This document shows positions 10,632 to 51,594 of a DNA stretch of 64,000 nucleotides, piece by piece. Below the pieces are notes generated by a model that was not told the DNA's origin, ran no database searches, and worked only from the letters and a program-made list of their open reading frames with translations. The position numbers and the translations under genes are program-made. This stretch comes from Amphibalanus amphitrite (taxonomy: Eukaryota; Arthropoda; Thecostraca; Balanomorpha; Balanidae), in NCBI RefSeq assembly GCF_019059575.1, contig NW_024881564.1, forward strand, positions 62,001-126,000, written 5' to 3'. Numbering within the stretch: position 1 is the stretch's first letter; the number at the start of each line of letters is the position of its first letter.

Positions 10632-11152
10632 TCGCAGGCATCAAGTAAAAAATGAGCAAGAAGTCACTTCTATTCAGTCTCACGAACACGAGATTCAGAA
10701 GTCAGAAGCTGCGCTGAAGCTGAAGATGTTGAGCGCTCTGCACTATAGGAGCTTATCAATTATTAACCCGCGCATGACTGGGGGGGAGGCTCTCGTTTTC
10801 CTGCGATCTCCAAAACGCTTTCTGTATCGAGCATCGAGTTCGACACGAAACTTTCAGTACCTTTGGCTGGTCTGGTCTGGATAAGTTAAAAGTTTAACAC
10901 CTTTTATAAAAAAAATTCTGAAGACAGTTATTTGTATTCGGGGTCATTGAACGCTTTTCAAATTGAAAATCGGGTCCGACGTAAGACGGCCGTTATTTAG
11001 AGGTATCTTGAGACGGCCCTCGCCCTCCCGCCGCCACTCACGTCAACGGACAACGTCGCGTTATGGAACAATATACCCTAGTCCCTAGTTCAGGTTATGC
11101 TATGCGCAGGCCAATAACTTTTGGACGGCTCAGGCTGTTACCACGCCCAAAA
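10632..11152. other. Intergenic sequence between SPO11 and the hAT-like element
   Basis: This is presumably SPO11 upstream sequence. A TTAACCCGCGC start followed by a G run at 10763-10790 resembles the left terminus of the TTAA-type elements, but no matching right end was found, so it may be a truncated copy. No gene is seen. Confidence 0.4.
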
Positions 11153-20882: not shown

Positions 20883-23800
20883 ATGGAGCCAGAAGAGAAC
20901 ATTGGTAAGATTTTTATATGTTATTATTTGCAGTAAGCAGTGGAAAAGTGAAACCATTCTAAGCCATTCAGGATTATATATCAAATAGAAGACATGTTTG
21001 CCATGATGTTTTCATCATTCACTCTATGTTTTTTGTTGAAATTCTGCATGAGTGATTCATGTCAGTTTCATTTATTGTTATTTAGATACAAGCTAAGCTG
21101 ACATTTAGATTGAATGAATATAGCCTGTGCCAAGTAGAGCTTCTTGCATAATGAGTGGGCCCAACCTCTGGCAGTTGCCGCGGGGGGCAGTTGCCGGGTG
21201 GAAATTTTTTACCAACTGAGCTCAGGGACAGATTATTATATCAGTGCTCTCTACCCTTATTTTCAGCAATGGCCACTCCGGTGCTGGCCATCAGCAACAA
21301 GGCGGTGAAGAACAAGAGAAGGAAGATGGAGGACCGAACGGTGCTGGTCCACGACCTCAGAGGGGTAACGGACAAAAAGGTAAGGCTGCTCGCTTAAAAT
21401 TCCGACATTAATAGTTTGAATTTGTAGGAAATCATGCATGGCTATACCTAGCGGCATAGCCTCTTATTAACACAGTTGATTCAAAATATTCATTCAACTG
21501 TTTTCTGCGACTTTATTTCAGCTTCCGGACCATTACGGCTTTTACGGCGTCTTCGACGGCCATATCGGCTACGACGCAGCTGCGTACTGCACCCAGCACA
21601 TGGCTCGCAATCTGGCCGAATCGCCGCAGTTCCCCGACAAGCCGCACCTGGCCTTTATCGACGCGTTCTCCACCACCGACAAGGGCTTCAACGCGACGGT
21701 ACGTGGGCGACGCGCGAGCGTGAGCTGAATTGGGAAATGCTTCAGCGGTATGATTTATAGAGTGCCTATTTGCTCATCTGATTTTAATGCTGATACATGG
21801 CATTTGATATTTGAAATCAGCTTTTGGTGATATCACTGGTCATGGATTTTGCGCTTCGAACGGTTATGGGTCGAGGTCATTTAGCATATCCAGTGCCGAG
21901 TTTGCAGGCTAGTTTGTAAGACGATACGTAAAGTCACGGTGGCACGGGTCCCGGGGTCATGGCCTGCGTGGGCCGGTGTCGGTCCCTGACCATGAGTCAT
22001 CAGTGGGTGCGGGCCAGGGCCGCGCCACACCGGCTCTTCTGGCCAGCGGCGGTCAGAGATGCAAATCGCTCCGCCTTCGGGGAGCGGCCGGCACCCCTGC
22101 TGTCTGGCCAGGAGTGGCTCACGGAGTCATGGCGCCTACCTGTCATTTGGCCCCTCCCGGCGGTGACTAAGAGGGGTGTAGCGAGGGGAGGGGCAGGTCA
22201 GCCATGCGAGGTGTTACATGACCGGAAAGTGTTATGGGAAGGTATTACATGACATCATGTTTGTTACTGGGGGCAGAATATCTGGGTCATGTAGAGTAGG
22301 TAGCGTGATTGTTTCGTTATGTGATCACAAAGGAGTTTTGAAACTTAGTTTTTATAATGCTAACGGATATTAAAGCTTGACCGGTGTTTTTCGCGCATCT
22401 TGCCTCAAATGCGCCACTGTTGTTTCTTAGTCGCCTCACACGCCGTTTCCGAGTTCATTTCCCATCAGCTCCAACTACCCTCTGCCTCTTATTGCACCTC
22501 ATGTCCGTTGAACCCAGCACCTGCAGCATTCCCACCGCTGGTGACTGACCGCTACGACCGTCCACCCCGCGCGGCCGCTCCCGTGACCTCGTGGGACCCC
22601 TCCCGTGTCCCGGTGTGACCCCATGTGACCCCCATGTGACGCTGTGTGCCGGCCTGCAGGGCAGTAACGCGGGAGCGGCGGTTGTGGCCGCGCTCATCTC
22701 CAGTACACACCTGCACGTGGCATGGATCGGTGACTGCCAGGCGGTACTGAGCAGGGCCGGTCTGCCCGTGCGCGTCGTCAACCCGCACAAACCCGAGCGG
22801 CCGGTGAGTGGGATGGGCCGGGAGTAGGGCTGGAGCTGGGGGATGCCGGCAGACGTGTGTTCACTAAGAAGTCTCGTAGGTATCACTGATTGGCTTCATT
22901 CTCATGCTAGGCCGTTCTTTTTGCGTCTTTTTTAATTGTGAAAGCAGTTTTTTCTTTGCTAGGATTTTTTATTGCATGTATTTGAATTTTTGACTTTGTT
23001 CTTGTTTGCACTTTGATCAGTTACAGGTAATTTTCCACCCATGCATTCCCCGTTTTTGACAGTGTATCTATCTATAACTTTTCCGTTTTCAGGACGAAAA
23101 GGCGCGCATTGAGCAGCTGGGCGGCTTTGTCAATTTTTACGGTTCCTATCGGGTCAACGGCGTTCTGTCGGTGTCACGAGCGCTCGGTGAGTTTAACTTC
23201 TGTAATTCATGTCGGTAGTCGACGCCTTGCTACTAAAGAGGTATAGCCGTATGTATCTGACATAATATAACATATCGTAATTGATACGCAACATTTCGGC
23301 TTTATGTGTTGGTTGCTTCCTTCATTTTTCTCATATGTGTATTATTATTCTAGCCCAATGTTGTATCCGGTAATGATTCGTTTAGGTATAGCTAATATTG
23401 GCTTACTTGGGCGAATTATTATATAAATTGGTTCGTTATATTACATTTCCCGATTGTAACGGTTTTATATTGCGATGTGGCGCTTAACTCTTACGGTTGC
23501 TATGTATTGTGACACATGCTCAGACTAAGTCTTGTGTGACGGTGAAGAATATGCGCTGCACCATTGGGGACAGCCTGCAGTAACGAGTTACATGCATTTT
23601 TTACGTCCCTTTATGTTGATTTTTCCTCTGCTTCCGTTTCCATTTTACTGTAATAGCGAACACCACAGCATGGTTACCGCATAACTTACGAATGCAATTT
23701 GGAGCATACGTCCCATATCAGAACGAATGCCTCGTTTGAGTGTTGCCGACACAAAGGGTGGTGACCGGCGTCGGTGGAAGCGGCGCCGAAGGCTGCACGG

Positions 23801-26800
23801 CTCCCGTGGCCACGCTGGCAGTCCTCCGTGAAGTGGGCGAGTGAATCACGCCGGAAAATCAACTGAGCGTGGCATTACGTAATTTACGGCTTGGGACACG
23901 TCTGTGAGGTAGTAGAAATGAACTGTTTGCTGATGTAAACCAGTGCTGAAATTTTAGTAAGCGGTGGTTTTGGCCATGACTCCGCGGCTGCTGTCCACCA
24001 AACAGCCATGTCGGGAGGTTTCGCTTTGTAGTTTTCTGGATTAGGTCGGATGTCACATATTTGACGGTTCATTGATAGAGGGATGACCGATCTGCTACCC
24101 AATTCTTAACCAAGGGTGGGAGGGGGAGTAAACATTCCTTCTCCTCATGCACACCGCGGATAGTACAGCCCCTAACGATTATATTCATCAATCTTCTTCC
24201 AAGGTCCTTTCAACAGCCACACGGCCTCACCACCATGCCACATCATCCATTGACTCCAGCCTCAGCTCATGACTGGCACGGTATTCGCCGCCTTTGCGGC
24301 CGGCCGAGTTGCAATCATCCCCGTCAGCACACATGAGTTCAGTGGCGAATAGCTGCGGCGGCCGCGCCGGCATTAGTAGGCGTTTTGTTTGTTTATATGT
24401 GGCCACCGGGCGGCTGCTACCGCCTCTGTCTGTCGCCGGAGACCCGGCTCACGGGTGCCAGACGTGACGGATAGGAATGCGATGTGGCGGCGTGTTGGGG
24501 GGTGTCAAAAACATGCCATTATCGATTGACGTTTGGTGATTAAAAAGTGATTTGAGCGGCATGTACTTTACGTGCGGACCTTTTTGTTGGGCGGTTAATC
24601 CTTCCTCCTGCCTTGCGACCAACCTAATGTTATAAATACGTTCCGTTCATTGTTTTTTCATCAGTGGAAATAATTTCGTCTCTTCCAACTTGTTTTGTCT
24701 CTTTTTCTCACTTCATCTCCCGCTCCTTCTGCCTCTCCATTTTTCTCTCCCCCTTCCGTTTTTTCTCCCTCCCTTTCCTTTCTTTTCCGGCTATCTTGTT
24801 CCTTTTCCTTTTCTCTTTCTCAGCTGCCTCCATTATATCGCCGCTCCATCCCGTCCCTGCTATTCGTTTCTCACATGTCGTTTCTCACCTGCCGTTCGAC
24901 ATCGGATTCAGGGCTCGACATCTTCGTAACGCGTCTCTTCTATCCATCGCCAGGTGACGAAAACTTTCGTCCGTTCGTGAGCGACCGGCCGGACGTGACC
25001 ACTGTGGAGCTGGATGGCACCGAGGACTTCCTATTGCTGGCCTGCGACGGCTTCTTTGACGTGATCAATGCTGAACAGACGGTGCGGATGGTCATGAACG
25101 ACATGGAAGAGAACCCAAGTACGAAGGGGAGAGGAGGGGAGAAAGAGAGGGATGGATGGATGGGGGAGGGAGGGTGAGGGTGACGTTGAGGTTGAGATTG
25201 AGGTTGAGGTTGAGGTTGAGGGTGAGGAAGAGGGAGAATGAGAGGGATTGGGGGAAGGAAGGAAAGGGCGCGGACGTAGTGGGGTGAGGTGTAAGGTTAG
25301 GGTTGGAGAAGAATTGAGTGCATGTGATGAGAACATAACGAGAAGAACATTATTACGTTTCACCACTTTCTCGGATGGCTAATGGCGCAATCAGCTGAGT
25401 AACAGAAGTTTAACTTAGGAGTCATCTTCACACCACACCACACTCATCACCTTACACTTATTGTGGCACCAAATAAAGCACCCACCAAATCGCCTGCTCA
25501 GTTAGATGCACCGTAATTCTCTGACCGCCTTGCTCTCTCCCCCGGTAGACGATTTCGCCGGTCTGGCCGAGCGTCTGGTGCGCGCGGCCGTCGACCTGCG
25601 CTCCTCCGACAACATCTCTGTGGTAGTGCTGCGTCTGGGAGGTCCTGTCGACACCACAGACGCGGCGGCGGCCACCCCCAGCGGCCGCGCGCCGGGCTCC
25701 ATCCGCAGCACGGACCCGTCCATCGCGGCCGGCGGCGGCTGCGCCAGTGCCAGCGCCTCGCTGCTCGTGGACGAGAGCCTGGGAGGAGACGTGCCGCGGG
25801 TGGACTTTGACAGTCCGAGTCAGGGTCAGATCACGCCGGATATGTTCAACGTCTCGGCGGCGTCTGGAGGCGCCGTCGAGCCGTCGGACTCCGGGTTCGA
25901 CATTGAGCGAGAGGTGAACCGGATGCTGACGGGAGGAGGACGCGTGGAGAGAGACACGCCGTCGCCGACGACGCAGACATGTGAGTACAGACGCTGCATG
26001 TGGAGAGGGGCGTGGGCTGGTGGTGGAGGTGATGGGTGGGGCCGACGGGGACCCACATTAGGGGAGTGAGGTCCAGTGTCTGTGCTTCTACTGTGTGGGT
26101 TACATGAACAGACCATGCATACTGTTATCGGGACTTCATAAAGTCCTTTTTGGGAAGGATACTTACTATTCATTTAGAAAAAGTCCTAAGTATGAATAAC
26201 GGCTGTGGTGATAACATTTCATCAAATATGGAAAGTACACTCTGAGTGTAACTAACAAGCGCCGTGGTCTATGGCGTGCTCTTCAGCGAACACTGAGTCG
26301 CCCCACGTGGCGCCTGGAGGCTCAGGCGAGCCCGCGGAAGCTCCTCAAAATGGTGAGCGACTTCTCGGTCTTGTACTAGCAATGCTTCCCATAGTTGTCG
26401 CCTCAGATGGTACTGAGAAGCTGCTTTCCCTGACTGGGCTACGGTAGAAGACTTATTGCATGTGGTTGGTGACTCAAGTCATTGGCAGTCGATGGGAACC
26501 ATTGATCGGTTAATAGATAAAACTCTTGGTTACGTTTATAACCACTCCTTTCATTTTGGAAGAGCTAGCAAATTAGTTGTCCGGCTGTCCTACCTAGTTG
26601 TCAGCGTATGTTGATCTACTACTATCTGCTACAAGCAAAGTGCCCGTCATAGACATTTTGACGGCGCTTTGGTCGCTGCGTCGCTTGCTCAAGAGTATTT
26701 CTATTCCACAATCCCACTCGTCAGGGAAGATGACAGGTGTATCGTTGTTTGGTTTGTTGCATTATTTTTCGCCGGGTCGCTGTCACAGCTAAATGCGCCT

Positions 26801-29800
26801 TGGCCTAGCAAATTTCAGGCCAGCTTGCACTCGGCGCAACTGTCTGAACCACCGAGTAAAGGTCTTAGATTGTATAGCTTTCTTTGTAGTGGCATATTTC
26901 AGAACAGCTTATGTGCTTTTTTGTAGCCATTAGATGATAACGAACTGCGGATGGCTGGTTTTTACAGCTGGGAGCCTGCCAGTCCAACTAATTTTACATC
27001 CAACATCCAACTAATTTTTACTTCTCCTAATTGATTTATGGGACAAATCGACATTTGGGAACAGTTTCGTTCTAATTGTAATTCGGATGGCACTGTCTCA
27101 CTCATTTGGACGTAACGCTAAATAGCTTTGCCTGTATACTGCCGGGATTTCCTCATAATATCGTTGCTGTTGGCACAGTTGCTCTTATATTCTCCATTTA
27201 TGCCTCGCAGACAATGAATGTTAGACAGTTATTGCGCTGTTTGCCAGGGTCTCCTCTCCTCCAGTCTCCTCCATGTCCAGGCCACGCCAACACCAGAGCC
27301 TGTGTTGTCCGGTGCTGTCCGGGTGCTGCATGATGATGTAGCGACCCTCCAACACAGCGCGTTTGTTTTGGCCCGTGATAGTTTCAATCTAGATATAAAC
27401 ACTCAGCACTGCCAGATATCCCGCCCACGTGTTCTGATGACGTGATTAGAGAACATGTCCTTAGTGATGTGTGGGATGCTGTTGCCCCGTACTTTTAACC
27501 AGGGGTTTATATCGTTTCTTCCCGAGAGTATTCAGTTTGTTTTGTTTTGTTGGGTTAGGCCCTTTCGGTCGACAAGACCATTGCAGAGCCGGAAGGATGA
27601 TAGGAATTAGGGGGAGACATTGGTCTGGGCAGGCACCCTAGTGAGTCGCCGGGGCTGAGCCCGTCCAGAGGACAGGCCACCCAGCCCCAAGGCACTCACT
27701 GCACCCGGCTACGGGGTGCGCTCCCTCAGGAGCAGCGGTGCCGCTCCAAGGGAGCAGCCCGCATGAGATAAAGTTGCCTGTCCAGCCCGGAGGGGGGTTG
27801 CGGCGTGGAGGAGAAGGATTTCAGTATCCTGAGGATAGAAGCACGGATAGGTGAGTATTCAGTTTAGAGGCTTTCACCCGTACTAACAATGGTCGGTCTA
27901 TGATGTCATGCTTGGCCAGCGACTGCGCCGGCCGCCCTCTGGTGGCCTAAGCTGGTGACCTGGCATCCCCGCGGGCGTCTGGCCTCCGGTCAGCCGGGCC
28001 CGTCGGGTCAGATGCCTGTCAGCTGCTGATTCACCAGATCGATACGGTGTCTCGGCTCTGTATTGAACCGTTGGTGACCATAGCCTATTTCAGCTCGGTA
28101 TTGAGCGGTCAGAGGCAATAAAGCGTATCTCAGCTCGGTAGGTATTGAGCGGTCGGTGGCCATACCAACGGGAGATGCGTCTCCGAACTTGCCGATAAAA
28201 GTTTGACAAGGCTCTGCCGGCGCCGGCCAGGCGTCTGAGACTATGCTGGTGTTAGATACGCTTCGGTAGGGTGGTGTCGCGGGGCCAGTGAGAGTGAGAA
28301 ATTAAACATACCGGATAAATCCTCTCCCTGTCGTTGATTTACATGAACCTTTTACATTGGGTGTTCTGTTATTCGCAGTTTTTGGCGTTACATAGCCATT
28401 ATTTCTGTACGCCGTTGACATATCTTACTTGGAATGTTCCACTTGTCACCTTCCCTAGACGTGACATACCTATTCCCCTGTCGTGGCGCCGAATAGACCA
28501 TCAGCCTCCTAACAATACAAACGATTGGGGTTCAAGGCCAGAGCCATTCCAGCTACAAGTTATGTGCGGCGCCATGCTGAAGTATTGTGTTTGTTCGTGT
28601 TAAAAGCTCACAGAGGCTCGCCCCTTGCACCCTCCGTTGTGTGGTGCAGCCGAGTCACCACCCCCTTGGTTACTGCCGGACACAGCACTGCGTCATCTTG
28701 TTGCTATGGTAACCCAGACGGGGGCGCACTCAGGCGCACTACCTTAGCCTGGAGGACTGCGGCAGTGGTGACGAAGCGAGCCGGTGTTCTGTTGTTACTT
28801 GGTTTACCATACCATTTGTCATATCCCAACCGGTAAGCGATTACAATGTTTGGATTTGGGCTTCAAAAACAGCGCATAATGGGTGTCTCGCATGTTTGAC
28901 AAAACTTGAGCGAACTGCGTCGAAAGTCCCGTTCCATTCATGCGACCTCTTCACCACTCATATTTTGAAAGTCATCATTATCTTTTCAAACAACCTATTC
29001 CTCGCCATTCTTGACGGTCTCTATAGGACTTACCACGACGCTGTGCTGGCTCCCTCCCTTCCCCTTACTGTCTAAACTAGCGCCGTCTGGCCATTACCTT
29101 CTCAACTAGCCCTGTCTGTCCAGCAGCCCTGCTCATTTAAGTGATACTCAGGCTGGACAGCCCCGGTCGTGTGGTGTGACTTGCAGACGCTGTCCTTCTC
29201 AATCATTGACGAGGCCAGCTGCGGAGGCGACTGCATTTCAGCCTGCTGTTATGGCGGCGGCTGTCGGCATGCCGGAGTAGAAGCTGGGCCTCGAGGCTTT
29301 GGTCAGGCTAACTGTGGTTGACATGGCTGTCCAGCCGCATTGGTCTCCTAGAGCTTATGTGCTGAATTCCAGACAGTGGGCGTTGCAGGACACAGGTGGA
29401 CACTGCTTGCTGACATTTCGCTTGGCTTTCTTCTGTTGACGGCTCAGTGTATATTTAGATTTGCTTGTTATGTGCTGTTCGCACAGACGTTCAAATATTA
29501 AATGCCAATATTTGCCTTAATCACATGACAGAGCCGCCATAGGTCATTTGATACATCGTTGATGTCTCCCGACAGCTGATTGATTTCCTGTCGATCAATA
29601 AAGGCTCGTTTGTGATAACGGAGACTGATAGCTGGTGACCGCCCACTGATACCGTCCAGTGATGGGTGTGAGATGTCTGAGGTGCTAAATCACCCGCCCA
29701 CACCCCCGTTTTTGGCAACACTGACCCACATGTCGGTCGAGTCACCCTATCCTCTCCGCCTCTCTCTCTCTCTCTCTCTCCCTCTCCCTCTCCCTCTCCC

Positions 29801-29951
29801 TCTCCCTCTCCCTCTCCCTCTCCCTCTCCCTCTCCCTCTCCCTCTCCCTCTCCCTCTCCCTCTCCCTCTCCCTCTCCCTCTCCCTCTCCCTCTCCCTCTC
29901 CCTCTCCCTCTCCCTCTCCCTCTCCCTCTCCCTCTCCCTCTCCCTCTCCCT

Positions 29952-30002
<51 letters not shown>

Positions 30003-33000
30003 TTCCTCATCACTCCCTCTCTCTCCTCCCTCTCTCTCCTCCCTCTCTCTCCTCCCTCTCTCTCCTCCCTCTCTCTCCTCCCTCTCTCTCCTCCCTCTCT
30101 CTCTCTTTCTCTCTCACTCTCTCTCTCTCACTCTCTCTCTCTCACACTCTCTCTCACTCTCTCACTCTCTCTCTCACTCTCTCTCCTCTCTCTCCTCTCC
30201 CTCTCCCTCTCCCTCTCCCTCTTGTCATGCTGCTCCCGCCCACACCTCATCCCGCGGCTGGTCGGAGTTTACGGTGTCTCTGTCTCTTCTCCGGTCTCTT
30301 CCTTAGTCTCTCAGTCACCCGCCCACGCTCCTCCGCATGTCTACACGGCGCTAAACACCCACGCCACACACCACCCGGTGTTGGGCTACATGGCTATGGG
30401 CAGGGTTTGCTGATATGGGTTTCACAAAGCGGCCGCACCGTCGCTTGACCATGCGGCTGTGTCTGCTTGGTGTTGCTAGGGAAGTCGGTAGTGGTCGGGA
30501 GGAGGTAGGCTTGTCTGTGTGAATGATCTCTCCGCTTGAGTGCTTGCGACGTGTGGTTGTTGTGATTAATGGTTATACGGTGGGTGCTTGCTTGCAGGCT
30601 CGTGTCCATTTCGAGACGCCGCTTTTTTATTAGATGCTTTTGGACACTATGGTAGTTACTATGACTGATTTGAAAAATCGTCTTGAGGTTCCTCGCACAG
30701 CGTCACACTACCTAAAATAGCATAAATTTGTATCATATATGTAGGTATTTAAAGCTTGCCACATTATGCGGGCCATAACGTATTTAGACACTTGGACAGG
30801 CGCCTAGCCCATCGGCCGCATGCCACGTCTTCGTGTGGAGGTCTGTGCGCTGTGGTCACTGAATATTTCAGGGTACACGCCCCGTCGGCTCATGCAGCTA
30901 ATGCATGCAACCCGGTCCCAGCTCGCATAGATTATCCCACGGCCGTGAGAAAGGCGGTCTTTATTGACTAACCACACCCTAATCAGCCCTGTAATAGCAG
31001 TGTATCTGTTGTCTGCCTGCAGACGGGTGGCGGGACGTCTTCATAGACGCGGTATTTTTCATACCCGAGGTGACGGCTTAGGGTGAGGCCGATTTGATAG
31101 TCATGGCTGATTGGCCTCTGGCGCTAGGGAGCTTGCTTTGCCTTCTGCAACCTGTATTGTCCAGCTTTATGCTTGCACTCATGTTCTAAGCAAAACAACA
31201 CTTGACCAAAGCGGCGGACCAGGTGACGCCCGCACGTGTCACGCTTTCTGACCGTAACGCGTTCGTGACTGTCCACGTCACCGCTTCTCCTCCGTGACGG
31301 TTCGTGACTCTGTCGTCACGCGCCGGGATCGTGACGGCCGTGACCTTCAGCTTCACTCGCCGTGTTTTTGAATGATGCAAGGGAGTGAGGAGTTCCAACT
31401 CTTCACCGGAAATGGCTGCCTTATTCCTAGTGGACGGCGTCACCGTCTGGAACGGGCAGTCTTTTGATGGGTCTCGGTCGTGCTGGTGTGGTTAGCTGGC
31501 AGTAGGGACATCTCTTTCGCCCACTTTTGTTGAATGCATCGCATGGCTCGCAGGCATACCTATAGACAGCTATGCAGACTGATGGCACTGTGCAGTGTGC
31601 TCATTGACAGCTTGGGCTCGTTAGGCATAAAGGAAGCGGCGGGCATTGCTGTTCTTGTAAGGTCTGCAAAGGACTTGTTTCCGCATGCGATAAGGCAAAT
31701 TGACAACTGACGAGCAAACATTGTCCTTCACCCACGCATAGTTGTGGCTTGATCTCGTCCATGTTGATACGTATTGGTGTGTTTCTAGCTCTAGAACCAC
31801 GTCCTTCATATTGATTGTATGAATAAGATAATTGTAGATAGTACAGGGTGTCTCACAAAAAGTGTACACATTTAAAATGAAGAAATTTCAGCATATAAGC
31901 ACGCGCTCACGTCAAATTCAGGCTTAAATTGAAGCTTAGCTCGTGCAAATTTATTTGACATACAATTTGTTAGTGAGAGTCATGAGACAGTTAAGTGAAG
32001 AGGAAAGGAAAATAATCGTGAAATTTTACCTTCAAACCGGTTCCCTGGTATTGACTCAGAGGAAATTTAGGGCTCATTTCCCTACAATAAGAGAGAAACC
32101 GTCGGCAAACACAATAAAACGGCTTACTGAACATTTCTTGGCTCACGGAACAGTCGGAAATCAAAACACTGGAAACAGCGGCCGCAAGATAACTGCCCGA
32201 ACACCTTTGAAAATCGGACAAGTCATTCGGCGAGTTGAGGAAAAGCCTGGAGTGTCCGTGCGGCACCTTGCGCAACAAGTTGGACTCAGCCGCTGTTCCA
32301 CGCATCGGATTCTTAGGAAGGACCTGAAGCTTAAGGCATACAGGTTATCAACATCTCAAGAGCTTTCCAAGTCTGATTGCCTACAACGGTTGGAGTTTTG
32401 CCGTTGCGTTTTTAGGAAAGTGCTCGTCTTGCCCCAGTTTCATCGGCAACATTTGGTGGTCCGACGAGGCACACTTTTACCTTCACGGCTTACCTAATCG
32501 TCAAAACCACAGACACTGGGGCAAACACCGGCCAGAGAAGACTTTGGAAGTCCCATTACATTCTCCAAAAGTGACGGTCTGGTGCGCGCTTAGCGCCCAG
32601 GGCATAATCGGACCGATCTTCTTTGAAGACGGTGACGGAGAACCAGTGACGGTGACTTCAGACCGTTATCTGGCAGTGTTGAAGCGCTTTTGGCGGTCTC
32701 TCAACAGCAAGTGCGCGGACACCATTTGCCTGCAATGGTTCCAGCAGGACGGCGCTCCAGCGCACACGTCAAGAGCCACGCTGGCCTGGCTGACCGAGCG
32801 CCTGGGAAGCCGGCTGATCTCCAGGCGGGCCCCCCACAGCTGGCCACCCCACTCACCCGACCTCACCCCCATGGATTTCTATCTATGGGGGTATCTGAAG
32901 GATGTCGTGTACGTGAAGGCGCCGCACACGCTAGACGAGCTCAAAAAGGCCATCAGAGGAGCCATACGCGGGATAACCATGGAGACATGCGCCCGTGTAG

Positions 33001-36000
33001 CTCAGGAGACCATGAGGCGCGCCACCACGTGCGCTGAGCGCAAAGGCTGTCATTTTGAGCATCTAAAAAAATGAGCGCATAGCTAGAGTATGGGAAACTG
33101 ATTCGGTATGTGAATATAAAGACGTGCAAATGATATGCGAATAAATTTGCAAGCTTTGTGCTTTCCAACGATATTTGTGTTTTTTACGTATGTTTTTAAC
33201 TTACGGAGCTATTTACAAAACAAATATGTACACTTTTTGTGAGACACCCTGTATTCACTCATTCTATTATAAGCTCCCTGTTGTTGTCCTCTCTGCAGAC
33301 GATGACGCGAAGTTGAACTTGGCTCCCCTCCAACAGTCCTACGCTCTGCGACGGAGGGTGTCCTGGCGACACTGAGTCGTCGATAGGGCGACTGCCACGG
33401 GCGGTTATCAGGTTAGGAACGCCGATCGAGCTGCTATAAACGTCAGCTTTATCGTGTCAGAAGCTCCAGTCCTATTATCTTGGATCTGATGGATGGGAGG
33501 ACTATCTGTTTCCAAGGATGTTGCCAATTCTGATTGCTGATTGGTCGCCATAGGTCACCGCCTCCGTTTTTAAAGCCTACTGTGTTTTCACTGGCCCGGC
33601 CATGGATGATTCCTTTAAAGACTCATTAGTGAGAAAGTTTTGGTTTAATTATTCGGTTGATTTGGTTTAAGTGCTCCTATCCGACCCTAAGGAGTATCTG
33701 TTCCATCTCCAGAAACATCATAACTATTTATGTGTCCACCACGGACGCTGCTCACCTACCGTTTACCTCGTTCCCATCGACCCATATTCCGTTTCCATGG
33801 ACGCAAATCCTGGTTCCAGGATCACCCATTCCGTTTCCAGGGACACTGATCCCGCCTCCGGGGCTCACCGGAAGCGGCGGCCGGCCTGTCAGCGGTCGTG
33901 CCCGAGGCCGGTAATCGGACGTCAGGTGCAGATCGTACCCGGGGGAGCGGAGGGAGGGGGAGGGGCGCTGAGGAGCGGAAATCGGCGCCCGTGCGCTCGG
34001 GCGGCTGCTCACTGCAGCGAAACGTAAACACAACACCACCGGCGACGGCCGAGACGCGTGCACGGCCGGCCTGGGGCGATGGGGACCGCCGGACGCGAAT
34101 CGGGCGGAGGAGATGTGATTTGAGACGAAAGTGGTGCTTTATTGAGATGCACCGACATTGGGGAAATAGTCTGAAACAGGAACTCGGGTTGCCTTGTGCA
34201 TGGTGAAAACAGTCTCAAACATCAGCTCTGGTTACCTTGTGCATGGTGAATTCGAATCAGTCTTGGTTGCCATATGTCCTTGTCAGGAAAGTGAGCTCCA
34301 GCCTCCAGGTGTGGTGTTTACTATCAGTGTTTATTCGCGTTTCACAATAAGCAAGGCTTATGGCTGGTCCTGGACAGAATGATCGAAGCCAGGACTAGAA
34401 AGTGAGCGGACGGCAGAGGCTGGATAAAAACTCTCGGAAGCGCTGGGAACCCAGGATGCTATCAATATCAAGCTCCTCCACCTCCCGTCGAAGAATTATC
34501 GCCCATTCAACCGTCAGCCTATCGGCCCCACAAAACACGATACAGAAACGTGTGTGCATTCTCCGCAAAACATGTGATCCACACGCCCTTCAGCCAGCGG
34601 TACCGAGACATGATTGACGGCCCGCCTTCATAGCTGAGTTGGTAACCGGCTGGTTAACGATAGTGGTAACTGGTGAGCTACCACTATGGTAAGCTACCAG
34701 GCTGAGTCCCAAATTGAGCTCTTGTGACGGAAGTAGCTCTTATCTGAGAAATATCTCGGAGAAGCTAACTTTACGCACTAACTGCTTGCGAGTGCTAAAT
34801 GCTAGCGCAAGCGCACTGTCAATCAGAGAGAACCCGACGAAGTTAGTGATGAATGGTTTCGAGTAGTGTTTGCTCTTGCTGCTCGGCGATTTTTTTTAAA
34901 AGGAAATTTGCACTCTGCTACCTAACTAATTGACATCTGTGCTGTGCACGCTGGTGGTCATTCTATACGCGCTCGCGTTCATGGAGTCACATTTCCATTC
35001 CACAAGAGCGGCATGCTTAGATCGAGATATCAGTGGGGCGCATTGAGGTCGCGCATGCCGCCCCGATTTCGCCCGATCGAGGGCCATTCAACTTGTTTTG
35101 AATCGATTTGTCTCTGTCATCGATCCCCCGGAAGTCCAGCTGTGCCATCTCTGCCCAGGCAATCATCGAAACGTAAACGGAGAACAATGACGCAAGAGTT
35201 ACCCATCCCACTTCGCATGGCGTCCTTGTAAACGCCGAGTCCTCACGCTCCTATCTGTTCTCAGGATGTCGGAAAGCCCGCCGAGGACCATTCCCTCGCC
35301 CCAGGTTTCCTGATCTCTCCGGTTCAGTCTGCCCAGCCGAGGTCCTCCCGTGCCGCTCTGCCGGGCGCGGCTCGTGCTGCCCCTGGCGGCCACCAGGGCG
35401 GCGCTGGCGTCGGCCGCGCCCAGTCAGCTGTCCGTGCGCCAGCTGACGGCACCGGCCGGTCGCTCGCTGCCGGTGCGTCGCGACTGGCGAGCGCCGCCCA
35501 TCGCGCCACGCCGCGGCGGCGCGCGCCAGTGTTGCGAGGGATCGGCGCGCGACGGTGTGTGTTCGACCGCGCTGGTGCCGGAGGTCTCCAGACCCGGGGG
35601 TCGGACAGGGACGGCCGGCCGGAGGACGCGGTGCGCTGAGCCCTGAGGTCGGCGAGAGGAGACTCGAGCGGAGTGACTGCCGTAAGGAGACTAAGGTAGG
35701 CTCAGAGGGCGGTGGATGCGAAGCAGGGGTAGGAGGGGGTCCTACAGAAAGGATAGGTCACGGCGGTTGAGGGAAAGTTGACGGGTGTGCGATTTCTGCC
35801 TAGCAACACGGTGATTATGAAAATATTATGGGTAACGACGAGTAAGGGATGCCTGGACAGAGGGATGTTTGGAGCGGCAGGGAGGAGAGAGGGCTGTCTG
35901 TGGGTGGATCAGGGAGGATAAAGGTATCTGGAGGCGCCTGGAAGGACAGAGTGGTATCTGGGGCGGTTGGGAGGACAGAGTGGTGTCTATGGGCGGCTTG

Positions 36001-45000: not shown

Positions 45001-48000
45001 GGTAACTGTGTTCACCCGGTGTGTACCGCTAGTAAGTTTAGCTCAGCCGCGTGCTGAACCTACTCAGCATTGCTAAACCCCTCTCGGCGTCTTCCAATCC
45101 CCTTCGTTTTTCGGCATGCTCCCGTTATCCTCTCTCTCTCTCTCTCCCCTCCCTCCACTCTCTACACAGCCCAGTCGTGCGCCTTGCGCTGGTTTTGCCC
45201 ACCGCACGTGTCGTTTTTGTCTCGCATTTTGCCGACTGGCGGCGAGGCACGTTAGCAGCACGATGGATGGTTGGATTGTGCTGGGGACAGCCGACGAGCG
45301 AACCCGGCGGCCCGGTGCCCTGTCGGCGTCTCGGCGAGGCTTCCGGCTCACTGGGTAGATGGGTACGAGGCAGGGGAGCAGAGCGGTTGGGGTTTGAATT
45401 ATTGCTGCTCCTGCTGAACTAGAGGAGCGTGTGATCGAACTTGATGAGACGTGAACGGGACTGTACTGAGGGAGTAGGGTCTGCTCTGATCTGAGCTAGG
45501 GCAAAAGGAAGGCGAGTTTGTTCTAAGTAAGTAAAGTCCAAGTCATGTGTAAATGTGTAAATTGATCTTCGCTTCTCGCCTCTGTACTTATTTACATACG
45601 TCAACCCAACCACCATTCGACTTCCGTCTTATCTATGGTCATTATTTTGGCGTTTCTCGACCAAGCCTGATTCTATTTTATGCCTTCGCTTGCCGCCTGC
45701 GCGGCTGCCTTCTATACGTTATTGTGTGGCTGGTAGTGGTCGTGCAGCCCCATCTCTCCTCCGCTCCCCCTCTCTCCCCCTCCCCCCCACGCCCCAGTGC
45801 TGACCACAGGTGAGCCGAGTTGTGAAGGTCACCTCTCCGCCCCCCTCCCCTCCCCCTCCCCGGCGGATGTGGGGTGAATGTCGGTACGTTACCGGCCCGT
45901 CGGCCACCGTTTGATGTCGGAGCTCAGCTAGTGAGGCAGGGCGGAGGCTGACCTCAGAACGGAGATATTTTGACGTGGGAGTAGGGATGATGGTAGGACA
46001 ATGCAGATATGTAGTGAAAGAAGGCTGGGCCGGACCTTTCTCGCTGCTTTTGGTTGATGTGGGGAGGCAAATTTTATCAAAAAGTTGGTGCGCTTGGAGA
46101 GATGAGGGATTCAGGATCCTTTGCGGTTTCGGTCAGGTTTGGGAATCGTGTGGTGAATACATTAATACATGCATGATGCAGTGCTGCGCGGAATATCATT
46201 TGAACTTTGCACAATGCGTCTGTGGAATTATGTATGTAGCAAGTTGGATCAGGTGGAATAACCAGGTGCTGCCATATCGAGCAACAGGCACCAGATCTCA
46301 GCGAGGAGTAGCGTCGCCTTATATCACAAGGCAGGACACTGTCCACTTTTGTCGTCGAGCGTTTATGCCCTGGAAAAGGATCGCCCTCTTCCCTGACGCC
46401 ATCCGCGTTATTCTGTGAACGTTTTTGACGTCTGTATCACGCATGAGCGACCTGATGTGTGTGTCCGCCGCTGATCGTGAACCTTTTTACAAAAAGTCCC
46501 TCGGAACAAGGGGGACTAGAATTTGAATAATAACCCATATTCATCTTCATTAACATCTCACTTCTGTGTGTCATGAAGACCATACGCTGGTCGTGATCTG
46601 CTGAAAAAAAAATACATCCCTGTAGCACCGTTAGCTAAGCCATGTTTTTCGTTTCCATTTCAGTGGATAACGTGCTATCCGAGATCGACGGCCTGCAGGA
46701 GGTGGACAGTGACGTAGTGGAAGACGACGACGACGACTCGAGTAGCGAGGAGGACGCCCAGTGGAGCTACGTCGACGTCAGCCCCAGCGGAGCGGTGACC
46801 AAGGTCAGAGAGGAGGCTGTGGGGACAGGGAGGGTGTGGGATCAGTGAGGGAGGCCGTGGGGTCCAGGAGGGCGGGGGCAGCGTCAGAAATGTCGGCCGT
46901 GGGGTCAGGGAGGGTGTGTGGGCAAGAGGGGACAGTTGTGGGTCAGAGGTGTTCAGTATTTACAAGATAGGTCAGTCAGAGGAAGATGCCAAGTGTAAGT
47001 CGAATGCACATGTCCTACCTACTTAAATGTGCAATAGCTGGCCTACAGCAAAGCATTAAACCTGACCTTAGGGAAGCGCCACGCTTGCCCGCATCTAATT
47101 CTGCCAGTAACCTCTCTACCCCTGAGTCACTCCGTCTCGATAAATCTCCACCCGTTTTGGTGGCCGGTCTGTGGCTTCGCTCCGTTTACGTCTCCGTCCC
47201 TCACATCCCGGCATCACGCTCTCCGTATTCTATCGCGCCGCTCGTCCCGAGAGACGCGCCTTTTTTGGCGCTCGTGCGCCGCATTCGCCACCCCCCGCGG
47301 TGCGCCGCGGCACGGTCAGACATGTCGCTGCTTTGTCCGTGTCTAGCTAGAGCGCGCCCGCCCCCGCTCGGGCCCGGGTGGGGTCGACCCGCTTCTCTCT
47401 GCACCCTGACTGTGAACATAGGAGGGTGGTTTTTGCGGTGGACGGTGTCGCTTTTTTGTGACTGGCCACATATGTTCCGTTGTGTGTGTGAGAGGGGGAG
47501 GGGAGTGGGTGACGGGACTTTTTTTGTAGGGGCGGTGATATGAAGGGTGTGGTGATTTGTGTTTTAGGGTACTGTTGTGTGTGTTGTTATGTGAAGTGTG
47601 AAAATCGAATATCGGCTATTCAAAATAATTATCTTCGCTCGATATTAGTGGCCCAGTGGAACAAAGTTATTGTCAGCTAATCTGATCGTATCAGGTCATT
47701 TACAACTTCGATGTCAATGGCCTTGAGACCACCCAATTTAAATGGTAATCCCCTGTCGAACAGTATCGCCAATCGAGATAGATGTTCCGTTTATCGCTGA
47801 GTCTCAGCGGTGATATATGCTTCTGTGAAGTCCATGATATCGACTGTCATGAAGGCTGATGCGTGTGGCTGACAGAGAAGCATTTAACTATCCGTTCCCG
47901 GCTGACAGCGTGTTTCTCCCTTTCGGTAGACGCATGTGACGATGACCTTAGACCTCTGGAGTCGGTACTGATCCCTGCTTCTCTCTGTCCACAGACGCCC

Positions 48001-51000
48001 GTGTCGGTGACGCCTGTGGCCTCCGGAGCCTGCGCCATGGAGTCCGGAGGAGGTGCCGAGCCCGGCTCGCCTCTGAACCCCGCTGCCGCCGAGTTCACGC
48101 CCGCCGGTCACGACCTGAACCCCGGCGCGGCAGAGTTCGTGCCCGGTCAGCCGCCCGCTGCTGCCGTCCCGGCAGAGGAGTACGAGTACGGCCAGGAGGG
48201 CGTGGCCGAGGCTGGCGGGACGTCGTCGACGGACGAGATCCTGGCGCGTCTGAGCGGTGGGATCTCTGCGTTTGCCGAGCAGCTAGAGGAGAGTATCGCT
48301 GCTGTCGCCGAGAGGTCGGCGGAGAAGATGGCTGAACAGCAGGCTGAGCTTCAGACTGAGGAGTCGTCTCAACCAGCTGCGGGAGAGGCGACGGAGCAAC
48401 CGGCGGAGGGCCAGGGTACTGACTTCTTCTCCCAGCTCGGCGAGGGCGTCTCGTCACTGACGCAGCAAATCCAAAGGGGCATTCAGGAGGGCATTCAGGA
48501 GGGTATGGACCACGCCGCCAATCCGGCTGCCGAACAGCCTTCCGGTGAGACGCAAGACGCGGCGCCGGTGACCAAGCAGACTTCCGAAACCGCCGAGGGG
48601 AAGCAGGACCAGGGCGTGGACCTGCTGTCTCAGTTCAGCGCCGGCGTCACGGACTTTGTTCACCAGGTTCAGGACACGGTCACTGCTGCCTACACGTCTG
48701 ATGAGCCTGAGAAGGCTGGGGACGCTACAACAGACGCAGCGGCGGAGCCTACAAAGGAGCCATCTGCCGGAGAGGGCGGCGACTTTTTCTCACAGCTGTC
48801 TGGCGGTGTGTCTTCTCTGGCGCATCAGATCCAGGAGGGCATTCAGGAGGGCATCCAAGAGGGCATGGGGCGCGTCTCCGCGGCCGAGCCCTCGGCGGAC
48901 GCTGGAGAGGAGAAGGCTGGAGACGCAGCGGCCCAGACGCCGTCCGATCAGCCCGGCTTCCTCTCTCAGCTGAGCGAGGGAGCGTCTGCGCTGGTCCACC
49001 AGATCGAGGACAGTCTGACATCTGCGCAGGAGGCGGCCGCCGCCAAAGCGGCCGAAGCCGACTCGGCAGTGCAGGAAGGCGCAGAGGAGGCGCAGGAGGC
49101 GACAAATGATGCGCTCAATGCGGCTGGCGATGCGGCCAACGCTGGACTGGCGAAGGTGGAGGGTGCGGCAGACTCCGCCGCGCGAGGACTGGAAGAGACG
49201 CTACAGTCAGCCGCTGATGAGGCGGAGCGTTTCACTTCGTCAGCCGCGAACTCTGCGGAGCACTCGGCAGGACAGGCGGAGGACTTCTTGCAGCAGGCGG
49301 CTGGTGAGGCAAACGATACGGTGGAGGAAGCAGCGGGGAAGGCGGAGACCTTCTTGGAACAGGCGGCGGGGCAGGCAAACGATATGGCGGAACAGGCAGC
49401 GGAGTCTGCGGAACAAACCGCAGGGAAGGCGGAGAACTTCTTGGAACAGGCGGCGGGGCAGGCAAACGACATGGTGGAGCAGGCAGCGGAATCTGCGGAA
49501 CAGGGTGCAGGGAAGGCGGATAACTTCTTGGAACAGGCGGCGGGGCAGGCAAACGACATGGTGGAACAGGTAGTGGAGTCTACGGAGCAGGGTGTAGCGA
49601 AGGCGGAGGACTTCTTGGAACAGGCCGCAGGAAAGGCGGAGAACCTGCTGGAACAGTCGTCTGGCCAGGCGGAGGACGTAGCGGAACAGTCGGCGGAGAA
49701 GGCAGAAAAGGTGGCTGAGACGGCAGACACCTTGTCCGAACAAGCGGCGGAGAAGGTTGAAAACGCTGCTGAGGAGGCCGAGAACATGGCTGAGCTGGCG
49801 ACTGGGAAGGCTGAGGATATGGCGGAACAGGCGGTCAAGAAGGCGGAGGAGGCGGCTCAGTCTGGTTCGGAGCAGCTGGAGAGTGCCGCAGAGACGGCAG
49901 CGGAGGAGACGGCCGGTCTGCGCGAGGCAGCGGCCGCCACTGTGGGCGCCGTCCTGGCCTCCGCGGCCGGCGCCGCTGCTGCTGTGGCTGCCACAGTCAC
50001 CGGCTCGACAGCAGACGCTGCGGAGAAGAAACCCGCCGACAAGCCCAAATCTGCCGCCGCTGCCACCAAAACCAAACCCGGTGCCGCCGCCAGCAAGGCC
50101 AAGCCGACTGCGACCAAATCTACCCGGCCGACGACTGGCACGGCGGCGAAACCCGCGTCTCCTGCCACTGCTCGCACCGCCGCTAAGGTGGCAGTGGCCG
50201 CGCGGACCTCTCCTACGAAGACCACAGCGGCGAAGACACCGGCTGCCAAGGCGAGTCCCAAGCCGACGGCGACAACGGCGGCTCGCACCGCCGCTGCGAA
50301 ACCTGCGCCCAAACCGGCTGCTTCGACCGCCGCTCCGCGACCGACCGCGGCCAAGACGACCGCCGCCCGGCCGGCTTTGTCGAAAACGGCCTCTGGCACG
50401 GGGACCAAAACGACCACCGGTGCTGCCGCTAAGCCGGCAGTGGGCGCTGCGAGGGCGACCACCTCTCCTACAAAGACGGCTGCCAGCCGGGTGGGCGCGG
50501 CTCCCTCCGCGGCGCGGACGACGGCCGCCCGTCCTGCCGCCAGCGGCGCTCCCAAGGCCCCCACTGCCCGGTCAGCCTCGGGCACCACCCGTCCCGCTAC
50601 CACCGCCACCACTACACACAAATCCCCCACCAAACCGGCCGCAGCCAAACCCGCCGCGCCGAAACCCACCTCGGCGAGGACCGCTGCACCAAAGCCCGCT
50701 CGCCCAGCGCCGGGAGCGGCCACTAAGACCACCCCGGGACGAGTGGCGCCAACCCCGCGCGCAGCCACTACTAACGGAGCCGGCCCGAAGAAGCCGGCAG
50801 AGGTGAAGATGACTGCGGCGGCCAGCAAGGTGACGGGAACGATGGCGTCCCGCGCGGCGGCCCGGGCGGCTGCGTCTTCGACAGCGGCGCCGGCGAACGG
50901 TGAGTGATACGGCTGGTAGTTTTCGGGGTGAACAGTGTTAGGCTAATGTTTCGTCTTTCTTGTTTCGTTTTTCTTCCATGTCATATCCAAGCATGTATTT

Positions 51001-51594
51001 CCGTGTGTGTGTGTGTGTGTAGTGCGCTAATGCTTCATGTGCATGTCATAGTCACTAGTCAGATTATCAGACACGTATTCTCGAACCTTTTGACATTAAT
51101 GCCTCTCTATGCTCTTGTCAATCGTGGGACATTTCATATGGTTAAAGATAAAAGTATAAGTCATTTTTGTGACGCATTGGTAATGGTATGCTGTATTGCT
51201 GTATATTTGACACTCTAACATCTATGTTTTCGCAGCCACCGGAGCCAAGAAGCCGACCACCACGGCGGCGAAACCGGCCGGCCACCGACTCTCGGTCGGC
51301 CGCACCAAGTCGGGCACCGCCGCCACCAAAACGGGCAAGGCCAAATCACCCACCAAGGAGCCTGCAAAGGCCGCGGAGGCAGAGCTGCCGCCCGTGGCTG
51401 ACTGCGTGTCGGAGTCCGACAAACTGCCGTCCGATGGCGCTGGAGACGCACCGGCCAACGTGAACGGCTCACCGACCGAGAACGGGGCCCCGCACGAGAA
51501 CGGCGACCACGTGGACGAGCCCGCGGCGCACGTGGAAACGGGAGACTTGCTGGGGACTGGCCTCGAGCCTGCGGCGGCCCCCGAGGCCATATGA
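20883..51594 (+). CDS. PPM1E/F: PPM1E/PPM1F-like (POPX) PP2C phosphatase with tandem PAM2 motifs and a long repeat tail
   Basis: PP2C enzymes are metal-dependent Ser/Thr phosphatases; POPX members act on PAK and CaMK substrates. Exons: 20883-20904, 21267-21379, 21522-21698, 22660-22803, 23093-23186, 24954-25118, 25549-25980, 26287-26352, 46664-46803, 47995-50899 and 51236-51594. All phases match, giving 1538 residues from this Met. The catalytic domain (about 14-270) shows [17 protein letters not shown] (canonical DGHGG), [59 protein letters not shown] and SSDNISVV. The metal ligands E29, D57, D215 and D259 are present; I60 and C130 are unusual. After it come an acidic segment ([13 protein letters not shown]), two PAM2-type motifs (L478 and L492), five FxSQLSxGVSxL repeats, a LEA-like helical tract and a Lys/Ala/Pro tail. 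The catalytic part is secure. The link across the 20.3-kb intron rests on phase and codon quality, and exon 47995-50899 could also start independently at Met 48036. Usual family length is about 450-770 residues. Confidence 0.85.
24664..24860. repeat. Pyrimidine-rich tract in a phosphatase-gene intron
   Basis: A CT-rich stretch just upstream of the exon at 24954. The apparent plus-strand reading frames through it are low-complexity Ser/Phe/Leu sequence and not credible as protein. Confidence 0.6.
25118..25262. repeat. GA-rich tract with a GAGGTT hexamer repeat
   Basis: Directly after the donor at 25119 lies a purine-rich tract containing a run of GAGGTT-type hexamers at about 25175-25225. Intronic, no coding value. 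Confidence 0.65.
28051..28165. repeat. Three-copy degenerate tandem repeat, about 40 bp
   Basis: Copies share CTCGG(C/T)..GTATTGA(A/G)C(C/G)G(T/G)T and a following GTGACCATA- or GTGGCCATA-like block. Intronic. Confidence 0.5.
29758..30222. repeat. Long CT-rich microsatellite (CTCTCC hexamer, CT dimer and CCTCCCTCTCTCT arrays)
   Basis: An uninterrupted CCCTCT hexamer array of about 190 bp (roughly 29777-29965) is followed by a CT dinucleotide run, then about seven copies of a 13-bp unit, then CT/CA variants. The 246-codon plus-strand frame through it is a pure Leu/Pro/Ser artefact. Confidence 0.95.
31844..33251 (+). mobile_element. Tc1/mariner-superfamily DNA transposon, 1408 bp, nearly intact
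   Basis: The inverted terminal repeats CAGGGTGTCTCACAAAAAG are perfect, with the TA target duplication at 31842-31843 and 33252-33253. It carries a transposase in plus orientation (separate entry). It sits inside the large phosphatase-gene intron, in the same orientation as the gene, 47 bp upstream of a candidate terminal exon. Perfect termini and a single visible coding lesion suggest a recent insertion. Confidence 0.93.
31982..33074 (+). pseudogene. Tc1/mariner transposase with one frameshift
   Basis: Transposases of this superfamily cut and paste the element by recognising the terminal repeats. The likely start is Met 31982 ([10 protein letters not shown]), opening a DUF4817-like helix-turn-helix region ([15 protein letters not shown]). 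A second helix-turn-helix follows ([20 protein letters not shown]). The first catalytic Asp is in WWSDEAHF, the second in [10 protein letters not shown] and the third in [13 protein letters not shown], giving a D-41-D spacing between the last two. The reading frame changes near a T run at about 32409-32415, so residues from WWSDEAHF onward are in another frame. No other break was seen up to the stop at 33074. A sequencing or assembly error at the T run is possible. Confidence 0.88.
33299..33375 (+). CDS. Candidate alternative terminal exon of the phosphatase gene
   Basis: It follows a good acceptor (pyrimidine tract then CTGCAG) 47 bp after the mariner element. It needs two bases to complete a codon, matching the single spare base left by the exon ending at 26352. 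It reads [19 protein letters not shown] and five more residues before a stop. Use of this exon would end the protein after the catalytic domain and omit the PAM2 and repeat regions, giving a protein of conventional POPX length. Support is splice-site quality and phase only. Confidence 0.4.
34160..34250. repeat. Two-copy tandem repeat, about 45 bp
   Basis: Both copies end in GGTT(G/A)CCTTGTGCATGGTGAA and share CAGTCTCAAACA- or TAGTCTGAAACA-like starts. Intronic. Confidence 0.6.
34620..34710 (+). repeat. Possible tRNA-derived SINE relic
   Basis: TAGCTGAGTTGG at about 34632 fits a pol III A box, and GGCTGAGTCCC about 60 bp downstream loosely resembles a B box. No cloverleaf, tail or target duplication could be drawn. 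This is weak evidence, listed for checking. Confidence 0.2.
35265..35639 (+). CDS. Candidate coding exon or chance open frame in the phosphatase intron
   Basis: Directly after a strong acceptor (a pyrimidine-rich run ending TTCTCAG) one frame stays open for 124 codons to a stop at 35637-35639. It begins [19 protein letters not shown] and continues as Arg/Ala/Gly/Pro-rich sequence. It is in phase 0, which does not match the exon ending at 26352 unless an intermediate exon is used. GC-rich DNA gives long open frames by chance, so this is tentative. Confidence 0.3.
   Translation, partial: DVGKPAEDHSLAPGFLISPVQSAQPRSSRAALPGAARAAPGGHQGGAGVGRAQSAVRAPADGTGRSLAAGASRLASAAHRATPRRRAPVLRGIGARRCVFDRAGAGGLQTRGSDRDGRPEDAVR
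35850..36075. repeat. G-rich degenerate minisatellite
   Basis: About six or seven imperfect copies of a unit of roughly 30-38 bp containing GGAGGACAGAGTGGT and GGGCGG. Intronic. Confidence 0.6.
46804..47994. other. Phosphatase-gene intron
   Basis: It starts with G-rich sequence containing a loosely repeated GGCCGTGGGGTC unit (46820-46930). The rest is mixed, with a frame open from 47863 into the next exon that precedes the acceptor at 47991-47994. No other gene is seen. Confidence 0.5.
48070..48150 (+). other. Tandem PAM2-type (PABP MLLE-binding) motifs
   Basis: Two copies lie back to back: [13 protein letters not shown] and [13 protein letters not shown]. Both fit the PAM2 pattern LNxxAxEFxP, in which the Leu and the aromatic Phe insert into the MLLE domain of cytoplasmic poly(A)-binding protein (established for PAIP1/2, TOB, GW182 and others). 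The Leu residues are 14 positions apart. Binding is inferred from the motif alone. Confidence 0.75.
48238..49017 (+). repeat. Five-copy FxSQLSxGVSxLxHQIQ protein repeat
   Basis: Within the large exon the segments [38 protein letters not shown] (48421), [18 protein letters not shown] (48619), [18 protein letters not shown] (48781) and [18 protein letters not shown] (48955) recur every 54-66 residues. Two copies are followed by [10 protein letters not shown]. The units look like amphipathic helices separated by Pro/Ala/Glu-rich linkers. I do not recognise the family. Confidence 0.75.
49030..49860 (+). repeat. LEA/apolipoprotein-like Ala-Glu-Gln helical repeats with an 87-bp tandem core
   Basis: About 275 residues of nearly pure Ala/Glu/Gln/Lys helix-forming sequence in short repeats ([27 protein letters not shown]). 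Four copies of an 87-bp (29-residue) unit start at 49357, 49444, 49531 and 49618, nearly identical at DNA level in the first three. The composition resembles group-3 LEA proteins or lipid-surface amphipathic helices. That likeness may be convergent and does not fix a function. Confidence 0.8.
50025..51594 (+). other. Histone-H1-like Lys/Ala/Pro/Thr-rich C-terminal tail
   Basis: The last roughly 400 residues, across two exons, consist largely of AAKP, SPTK, TPTK and TAAR type motifs, followed by an acidic, Asn/Glu-rich end that stops at 51594. The composition is like linker-histone tails or microtubule-binding Lys/Pro/Ala tails. It is probably disordered and positively charged. SPTK steps could be proline-directed kinase sites. 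Confidence 0.7.

Follow-up and report, generated by a model that had tools for sequence, protein, structure and literature searches.

A predicted barnacle PP2C-type phosphatase that may extend into a long tail with tandem PAM2 motifs

Introduction

The proteins PAIP2, ataxin-2, eRF3 and TNRC6 are among the known carriers of PAM2 motifs; in PAIP2 the motif is preceded by an acidic segment on its N-terminal side, and to our knowledge none of the four carries a phosphatase. Two PAM2 motifs can occur in one protein, as in eRF3, where they overlap, share one phenylalanine and bind 1:1, according to PMC2854688. For TNRC6A, PAM2-mediated binding to the poly(A)-binding protein (PABP) was stronger when candidate phosphosites were replaced by alanine, as summarized in PMC7917804, citing Huang 2013. 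Other examples are Upa1 and Upa2 of Ustilago, which possess PAM2 or PAM2-like motifs and help to attach mRNPs to endosomes (PMC12852828).

Phosphatases of the PPM1E/F (POPX/FEM-2) subfamily possess a regulatory region N-terminal to the catalytic domain, and CG10376 is presumably the fly relative of PPM1E/F. This fly protein was included in an alignment of eIF4E-binding motifs (PMC11306785), and in a clock RNAi screen 88-94% of the CG10376 flies were rhythmic, without a strong effect (PMC5144990). According to PMC11306785, PPM1G dephosphorylates eIF4E, to which it binds largely via a YxxxxL motif. As far as titles and the first parts of abstracts in the open-licence full-text literature indicate, no PP2C or PPM1E/F protein with PAM2 motifs has been described, nor any phosphatase for which PAM2 serves as the dock on PABP. 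Such a layout may already be present, unremarked, in arthropod proteomes.

Here, a window of 64,000 nucleotides of the Amphibalanus amphitrite genome is analyzed, for which a sequence-only reading had proposed a phosphatase fused to tandem PAM2 motifs. The exon structure would be explained most economically by a single gene for a PPM1E/F-type Ser/Thr phosphatase of approximately 1,520-1,545 residues that docks on mRNPs via two PAM2 motifs, and to this reading we assign about an even chance of being correct.

Results

Coding exons, all on the plus strand, were positioned by eye from splice signals and homology. Splice sites were scored with a generic matrix, and coding potential with a model of 599 codons derived in part from the PP2C exons and the neighbouring tubulin gene, whose training pieces likely include some intron carry-over. 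As the PP2C exons thus contributed to the training of the codon score, independent tests are provided by the linker and tail exons alone. The exon phases agree throughout the model, as had been claimed from the sequence alone, and the product comprises 1545 residues, or 1523 without a doubtful exon of 22 codons (26287-26352).

A possible but weak first coding exon (20881-20904) contains ATG 20883, encodes MEPEENI and ends in a phase 1 donor; its 7 codons have a codon score of 0.2, its acceptor is in the top 14% of AGs and its donor in the top 2.1% of GTs. Equally possible as a start is ATG 21269, in the exon 21267-21379 that carries the RRKMED motif of the PP2C domain. This exon is followed by those with the metal-site motif FDGH (21522-21719) and the motif WIGDC (22660-22803), by a further PP2C exon (23093-23186), by the exon with the metal-site motif ACDGFFD (24954-25118) and by exon 25549-25980, the top-scoring exon candidate of the PP2C domain region, which contains the end of the domain (SSDNIS), a linker of about 100 residues and a phase 1 donor. 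The third exon has an alternative donor of the same phase after 21698, with a score of 3.5 as compared to -0.4 for the one after 21719, and the frame is kept either way; we prefer the end at 21719, since the additional residues appear to correspond to a position that is presumably occupied in PPM1F.

The PP2C domain is complete within 21267-25980 (plus strand), where Pfam family PF00481 was matched by residues 19-268 with an E value of 5.8e-55 over profile positions 6-255 of 255, so that the catalytic domain proposed earlier is well founded. The motifs RRKMED, FDGH, WIGDC, ACDGFFD and SSDNIS were all located in it. Given the presence of these catalytic motifs, which would include the metal-binding aspartates, the enzyme is probably active. 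In a PDB search, 12 plant PP2C sequences outscored 4jnd, which is annotated as a CaM kinase phosphatase and which we take to be C. elegans FEM-2; this entry was aligned to residues 16-272 with an E value of 3.5e-27, and the N-terminal 115 residues alone matched it weakly (E 0.19). The motifs HVAWxGDxQ, PERxDEKARIE and RVNGxLxVSRAxGD, together with one 11-residue motif, resemble PPM1F. The assignment to PPM1E/F is based on this resemblance and is tentative. No convincing exon for an N-terminal extension was detected upstream of 20881 in the 11-20.9 kb scanned, where the best candidate scored 18.2 and short exons could escape.

The PAM2 motifs are located in a large exon (47995-50899), which also encodes helical modules, a long amphipathic helix and most of a basic tail, and whose splice sites, acceptor as well as donor, rank in the top 0.5%. 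The last coding exon (51236-51594) follows, with an acceptor in the top 1.4%, an acidic C terminus and a TGA stop codon at 51592-51594. Both motifs, at 48073-48102 and 48115-48144 (plus strand), match the consensus; they are 14 residues apart and are situated in a segment without predicted structure. The PAM2 profile PF07145 (cut-off of 20 bits) scored 21 bits on a long piece and 27.2 bits on the first 100 amino acids of the exon, two stretches being matched in each scan, which bears out the tandem LNxxAxEFxP motifs of the sequence-only reading. The sole PDB match of this segment at E values up to 10 was the PAIP2 peptide of 1jgn, whose chain B aligned at the second motif, along the stretch NLNPNAKEFVPGV; the E value of 1.3 is weak because the match is short. 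From composition, 2e-5 exact motif matches are expected in the 1087-residue tail, and in 20,000 shuffles the pattern L[NS]xxAxEFxP occurred at least once in 2 and at least twice in 0. When all six frames of the window were scanned with a related pattern of somewhat lower stringency, only these two motifs came up. On these statistics, a chance origin of the two motifs is excluded.

The point on which the fusion depends is the connection between the two halves, which are separated by an intron of 20.3 kb, whereas the other introns measure approximately 0.14-1.8 kb. This great length counts against one gene and favours two, namely, a short phosphatase that ends at about 26 kb and a separate protein with PAM2 motifs, helices and basic tail that starts at ATG 46642 (unspliced) or ATG 48037; we consider this arrangement, although it is the chief alternative, rather unlikely. 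Both starts have some appeal. ATG 46642 is in frame, 22 bases before a linking exon (46664-46803), with the nearest upstream stop at 46636, and ATG 48037, the internal ATG of the large exon, which had been placed near 48036 in the earlier reading, lies 42 bases past an acceptor. The PAM2 motifs would be retained in either product.

The linking exon itself argues for the connection. It encodes an acidic stretch followed by AQWSYVDV, is entered in phase 1 and left in phase 0, and its acceptor and donor rank among the best 3% of AGs and GTs, respectively. Its entry phase equals the exit phase of the phosphatase exon, and its exit phase equals the entry phase of the PAM2 exon; three matching phases are expected by chance in about 1 in 27 cases. 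Only one of its three frames is open, with a codon score of 29.9 (0.65 per codon), and its third-position GC of 0.85 is near the 0.68-0.84 of the PP2C exons. It ranks first (36.2; next, 28.7) of five candidates listed between 25.9 and 48.1 kb that do not overlap one another. The corresponding segment scores 34.4, as compared to 25.2 for the best other real plus-strand segment of the gap (35374-35589, GC-rich). When the surrounding region was simulated 200 times with a second-order Markov model, the best plus-strand segment of a copy scored 12.5 on average and 20.7 at most. This simulated null is lenient, since the real GC-rich segment also exceeds its maximum. No Pfam family was matched by the linking exon.

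Such a coding signal makes it unlikely that the linking exon is a 5' untranslated region of a separate gene. ATG 46642 is the only in-frame ATG between the nearest stop and the acceptor, but it lies inside the acceptor tract: positions 46642-46663 overlap the pyrimidine-rich stretch, and the codon signal begins at the acceptor. As the linking exon has no ATG in its frame, its start must lie upstream, and no other convincing start exon for it was found in 26.3-46.6 kb. Conversely, the donor after 25980, at the end of the phosphatase exon, is good, and the exon-candidate scan provided neither another convincing coding partner downstream of it nor a convincing terminal phosphatase exon. Joining the two exons would thus supply both the missing start and the missing end. 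Two genes are also disfavoured by the lack of AATAAA or ATTAAA in 26352-28117, but the AATAAA nearest to the tail is likewise about 1.9 kb away.

The span proposed by the sequence-only reading included the exon that ends at 26352, which did not hold up as a certain exon: its codon score is -3.7, two of its three frames are open, its acceptor is only in the top 18% of AGs (its donor is in the top 1.1%), and it is absent among the exon candidates scoring at least 8. It is best regarded as optional, because its length is a multiple of 3 and 25980 joins 46664 in phase as well. This optional exon and the internal ATGs would fit a single gene with alternative products, from which the complete fusion, a short form of the phosphatase and a PAM2 protein with an internal start would all arise; we regard this as quite unlikely.

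Several other features were noted between the two halves. A candidate coding exon at 35265-35630, with a score of 28.7, was rejected since its score per codon is low, it is GC-rich, two overlapping frames score highly and its phases fit neither neighbour. At 31940-33074 (plus strand), two transposase-like frames overlap, of which the second matches DDE_3 below the threshold (24.8 bits; cut-off, 28.6), and about 75 copies of a CTCCCT-type hexamer form an array at 29760-30222. Within the linking exon, the acidic run followed by WSYVDV (46720-46773, plus strand) resembles LIR and PAM1-type motifs. A WxxV core is present after acidic residues, but a reading as an LC3-binding LIR was not adopted since the adjacent residues depart from the extended LIR consensus; a PAM1-like reading, likewise not adopted, is a resemblance only.

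Downstream of the PAM2 motifs, five amphipathic helical modules (48232-49053, plus strand; starting at residues 538, 600, 666, 720 and 778) are followed by a 277-residue amphipathic helix (residues 823-1099; 49087-49917) with periodicities of 11 and 29 residues, in the region of which an 87-bp tandem repeat is found (49336-49625). The hydrophobic moment of this helix is 0.37 at 99 degrees, as compared to a mean of 0.10 and a maximum of 0.17 in 500 shuffles, and its residue identity, 0.14 by chance, rises to 0.36 at a lag of 11 and to 0.44 at a lag of 29. The Kyte-Doolittle windows of the whole protein peak, at 1.79, in an alanine-rich hydrophobic segment (residues 1103-1128; 49927-50004). The remainder is a basic, disordered tail rich in Pro, Ala, Lys and Thr (50020-51372, interrupted by the intron 50900-51235) with four SPTK repeats and, over 339 residues, 62 Lys and Arg against 4 Asp and Glu. 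The pattern [ST]Px[KR] occurs 5 times in it, which is only a mild enrichment (mean of 1.8 in shuffles, with 5 reached in 69 of 2000). A single-sequence AlphaFold model (mean pLDDT of 44.8), used for the layout of helix and disorder only, contains helices of low confidence in the modules and the long helix, and no helix in the PAM2 segment or the last 293 residues of the exon.

Of the roughly 1000 residues of repeats in the sequence-only reading, about 600 are predicted helix, succeeded by the basic tail of about 340 residues. The likeness of this tail to linker histone H1 holds for composition and not for family: at E values up to 1, H1 was not matched by the helical part and tail start, by 50020-50898 or by the last exon, no H15 globular domain was found, and no Pfam family at all was matched by 50020-50898 or the last exon. 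The helical pieces at 48229-50007 (plus strand), scanned alone, exceeded the Pfam cut-offs of CCD (WisP C-terminal region; 26.8 against 25) and MT0933_antitox (30.1 against 27), which are presumably bacterial families; we take these matches to reflect repetitive amphipathic helix composition and not kinship. A search for relatives of the 968-residue exon product gave 135 pattern matches in prokaryote contigs and 62 in viral contigs, of which 0 were confirmed in either set, as expected for an animal protein.

The same region permits a further interpretation, in which phosphatase and tail are indeed fused, yet the PAM2-like motifs have no use and the tail is an anchor for membranes, lipid or microtubules. 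The long amphipathic helix, the hydrophobic segment, the basic tail and an Apolipoprotein match that remains sub-threshold (28 bits, and 33.8 on pieces, for a cut-off of 90) are in line with an anchor. However, two consensus-matching motifs in close succession within a segment of no predicted structure are hard to reconcile with their being unused, and this interpretation is judged improbable.

In the surroundings of the gene, coding segments similar to SPO11/topoisomerase VI-A occupy 7076-8318 (minus strand), of which 7664-7858 matches TP6A_N (4.5e-11); the name SPO11 is our presumption. Just 5' of them, on the same strand, is an open frame of 692 amino acids (8562-10640) in which DDLDEP-type repeats are numerous and which matched no Pfam family at E values up to 1. 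On the other side, a tubulin-like gene of several exons, assumed to be of the alpha type, is located at 55889-58214 (plus strand), and 57162-57842 matches Tubulin_C (3.3e-39).

Discussion

The catalytic domain, the PAM2 motifs, the compatibility of the exons and the helix periodicity are seen directly in the sequence, and from these we infer a single transcript that would span phosphatase and tail. For the fusion proposed by the sequence-only reading, this means that domain, motifs and phases stand, and that the single transcript is a prediction.

If the one-gene reading is correct, the C-terminal PAM2 motifs would bind the MLLE domain of the cytoplasmic PABP and thereby dock the enzyme on mRNPs, a targeting suggested by analogy with the role of PAM2 in known proteins. 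As both motifs are complete, a single chain might in principle engage two MLLE domains. Proteins of the mRNP in the vicinity would be the substrates of the docked enzyme, among them further PAM2 carriers, whose attachment to PABP is reportedly weakened when they are phosphorylated. The amphipathic helices and the basic tail would serve as its anchor or scaffold at surfaces of membrane, lipid or polymer; binding, substrates and anchoring are likewise inferred. UBR5 carries an MLLE domain as well (PMC12852828) and could be the partner instead of PABP. Our tentative proposal is that a PPM enzyme acquired two PAM2 motifs and a scaffold that binds membranes or surfaces, and that on mRNPs, perhaps those at vesicles or lipid droplets, it restores the phosphorylation state of the partners of PABP. 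Should the join be real, dephosphorylation could take place directly at the poly(A) tail by way of this protein, and as a test protein it should allow catalysis to be separated from targeting by removal of the two short motifs.

Links emerge between this proposal and the systems described above. Since TNRC6A with alanine at candidate phosphosites is reported to bind PABP more strongly (PMC7917804, citing Huang 2013), a docked phosphatase could favour such binding. As a PPM phosphatase that acts on the translation machinery, PPM1G (PMC11306785) sets a precedent for the role proposed in the barnacle. The YxxxxL motif is absent from the full predicted barnacle sequence, which rules out an eIF4E-binding motif as in PPM1G, and docking by PAM2 would thus bring the enzyme to a comparable site in another way. 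With Upa1 and Upa2 of Ustilago the barnacle protein has PAM2 or PAM2-like motifs in common; Upa1 has a FYVE domain where the barnacle protein has a phosphatase, and membrane attachment of the latter would depend on its predicted helices and tail. The eRF3 motifs overlap and share a phenylalanine (PMC2854688), whereas each barnacle motif is complete and separate from the other.

Another likeness is the placement of LNxxAxEFxP in a disordered stretch, which PAIP2, ataxin-2, eRF3 and TNRC6 have in common with the barnacle tail, and an acidic segment precedes PAM2 in the barnacle protein as it does in PAIP2. Finally, the PP2C catalytic domain is shared with PPM1E, PPM1F (POPX1/2) and FEM-2. In the 4jnd chain, 167 residues precede the matched part, whereas no N-terminal region was found in the barnacle protein. 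Unlike in PPM1E, PPM1F and FEM-2, the predicted barnacle catalytic domain would be followed by a tail of approximately 1,150-1,250 residues with PAM2 motifs.
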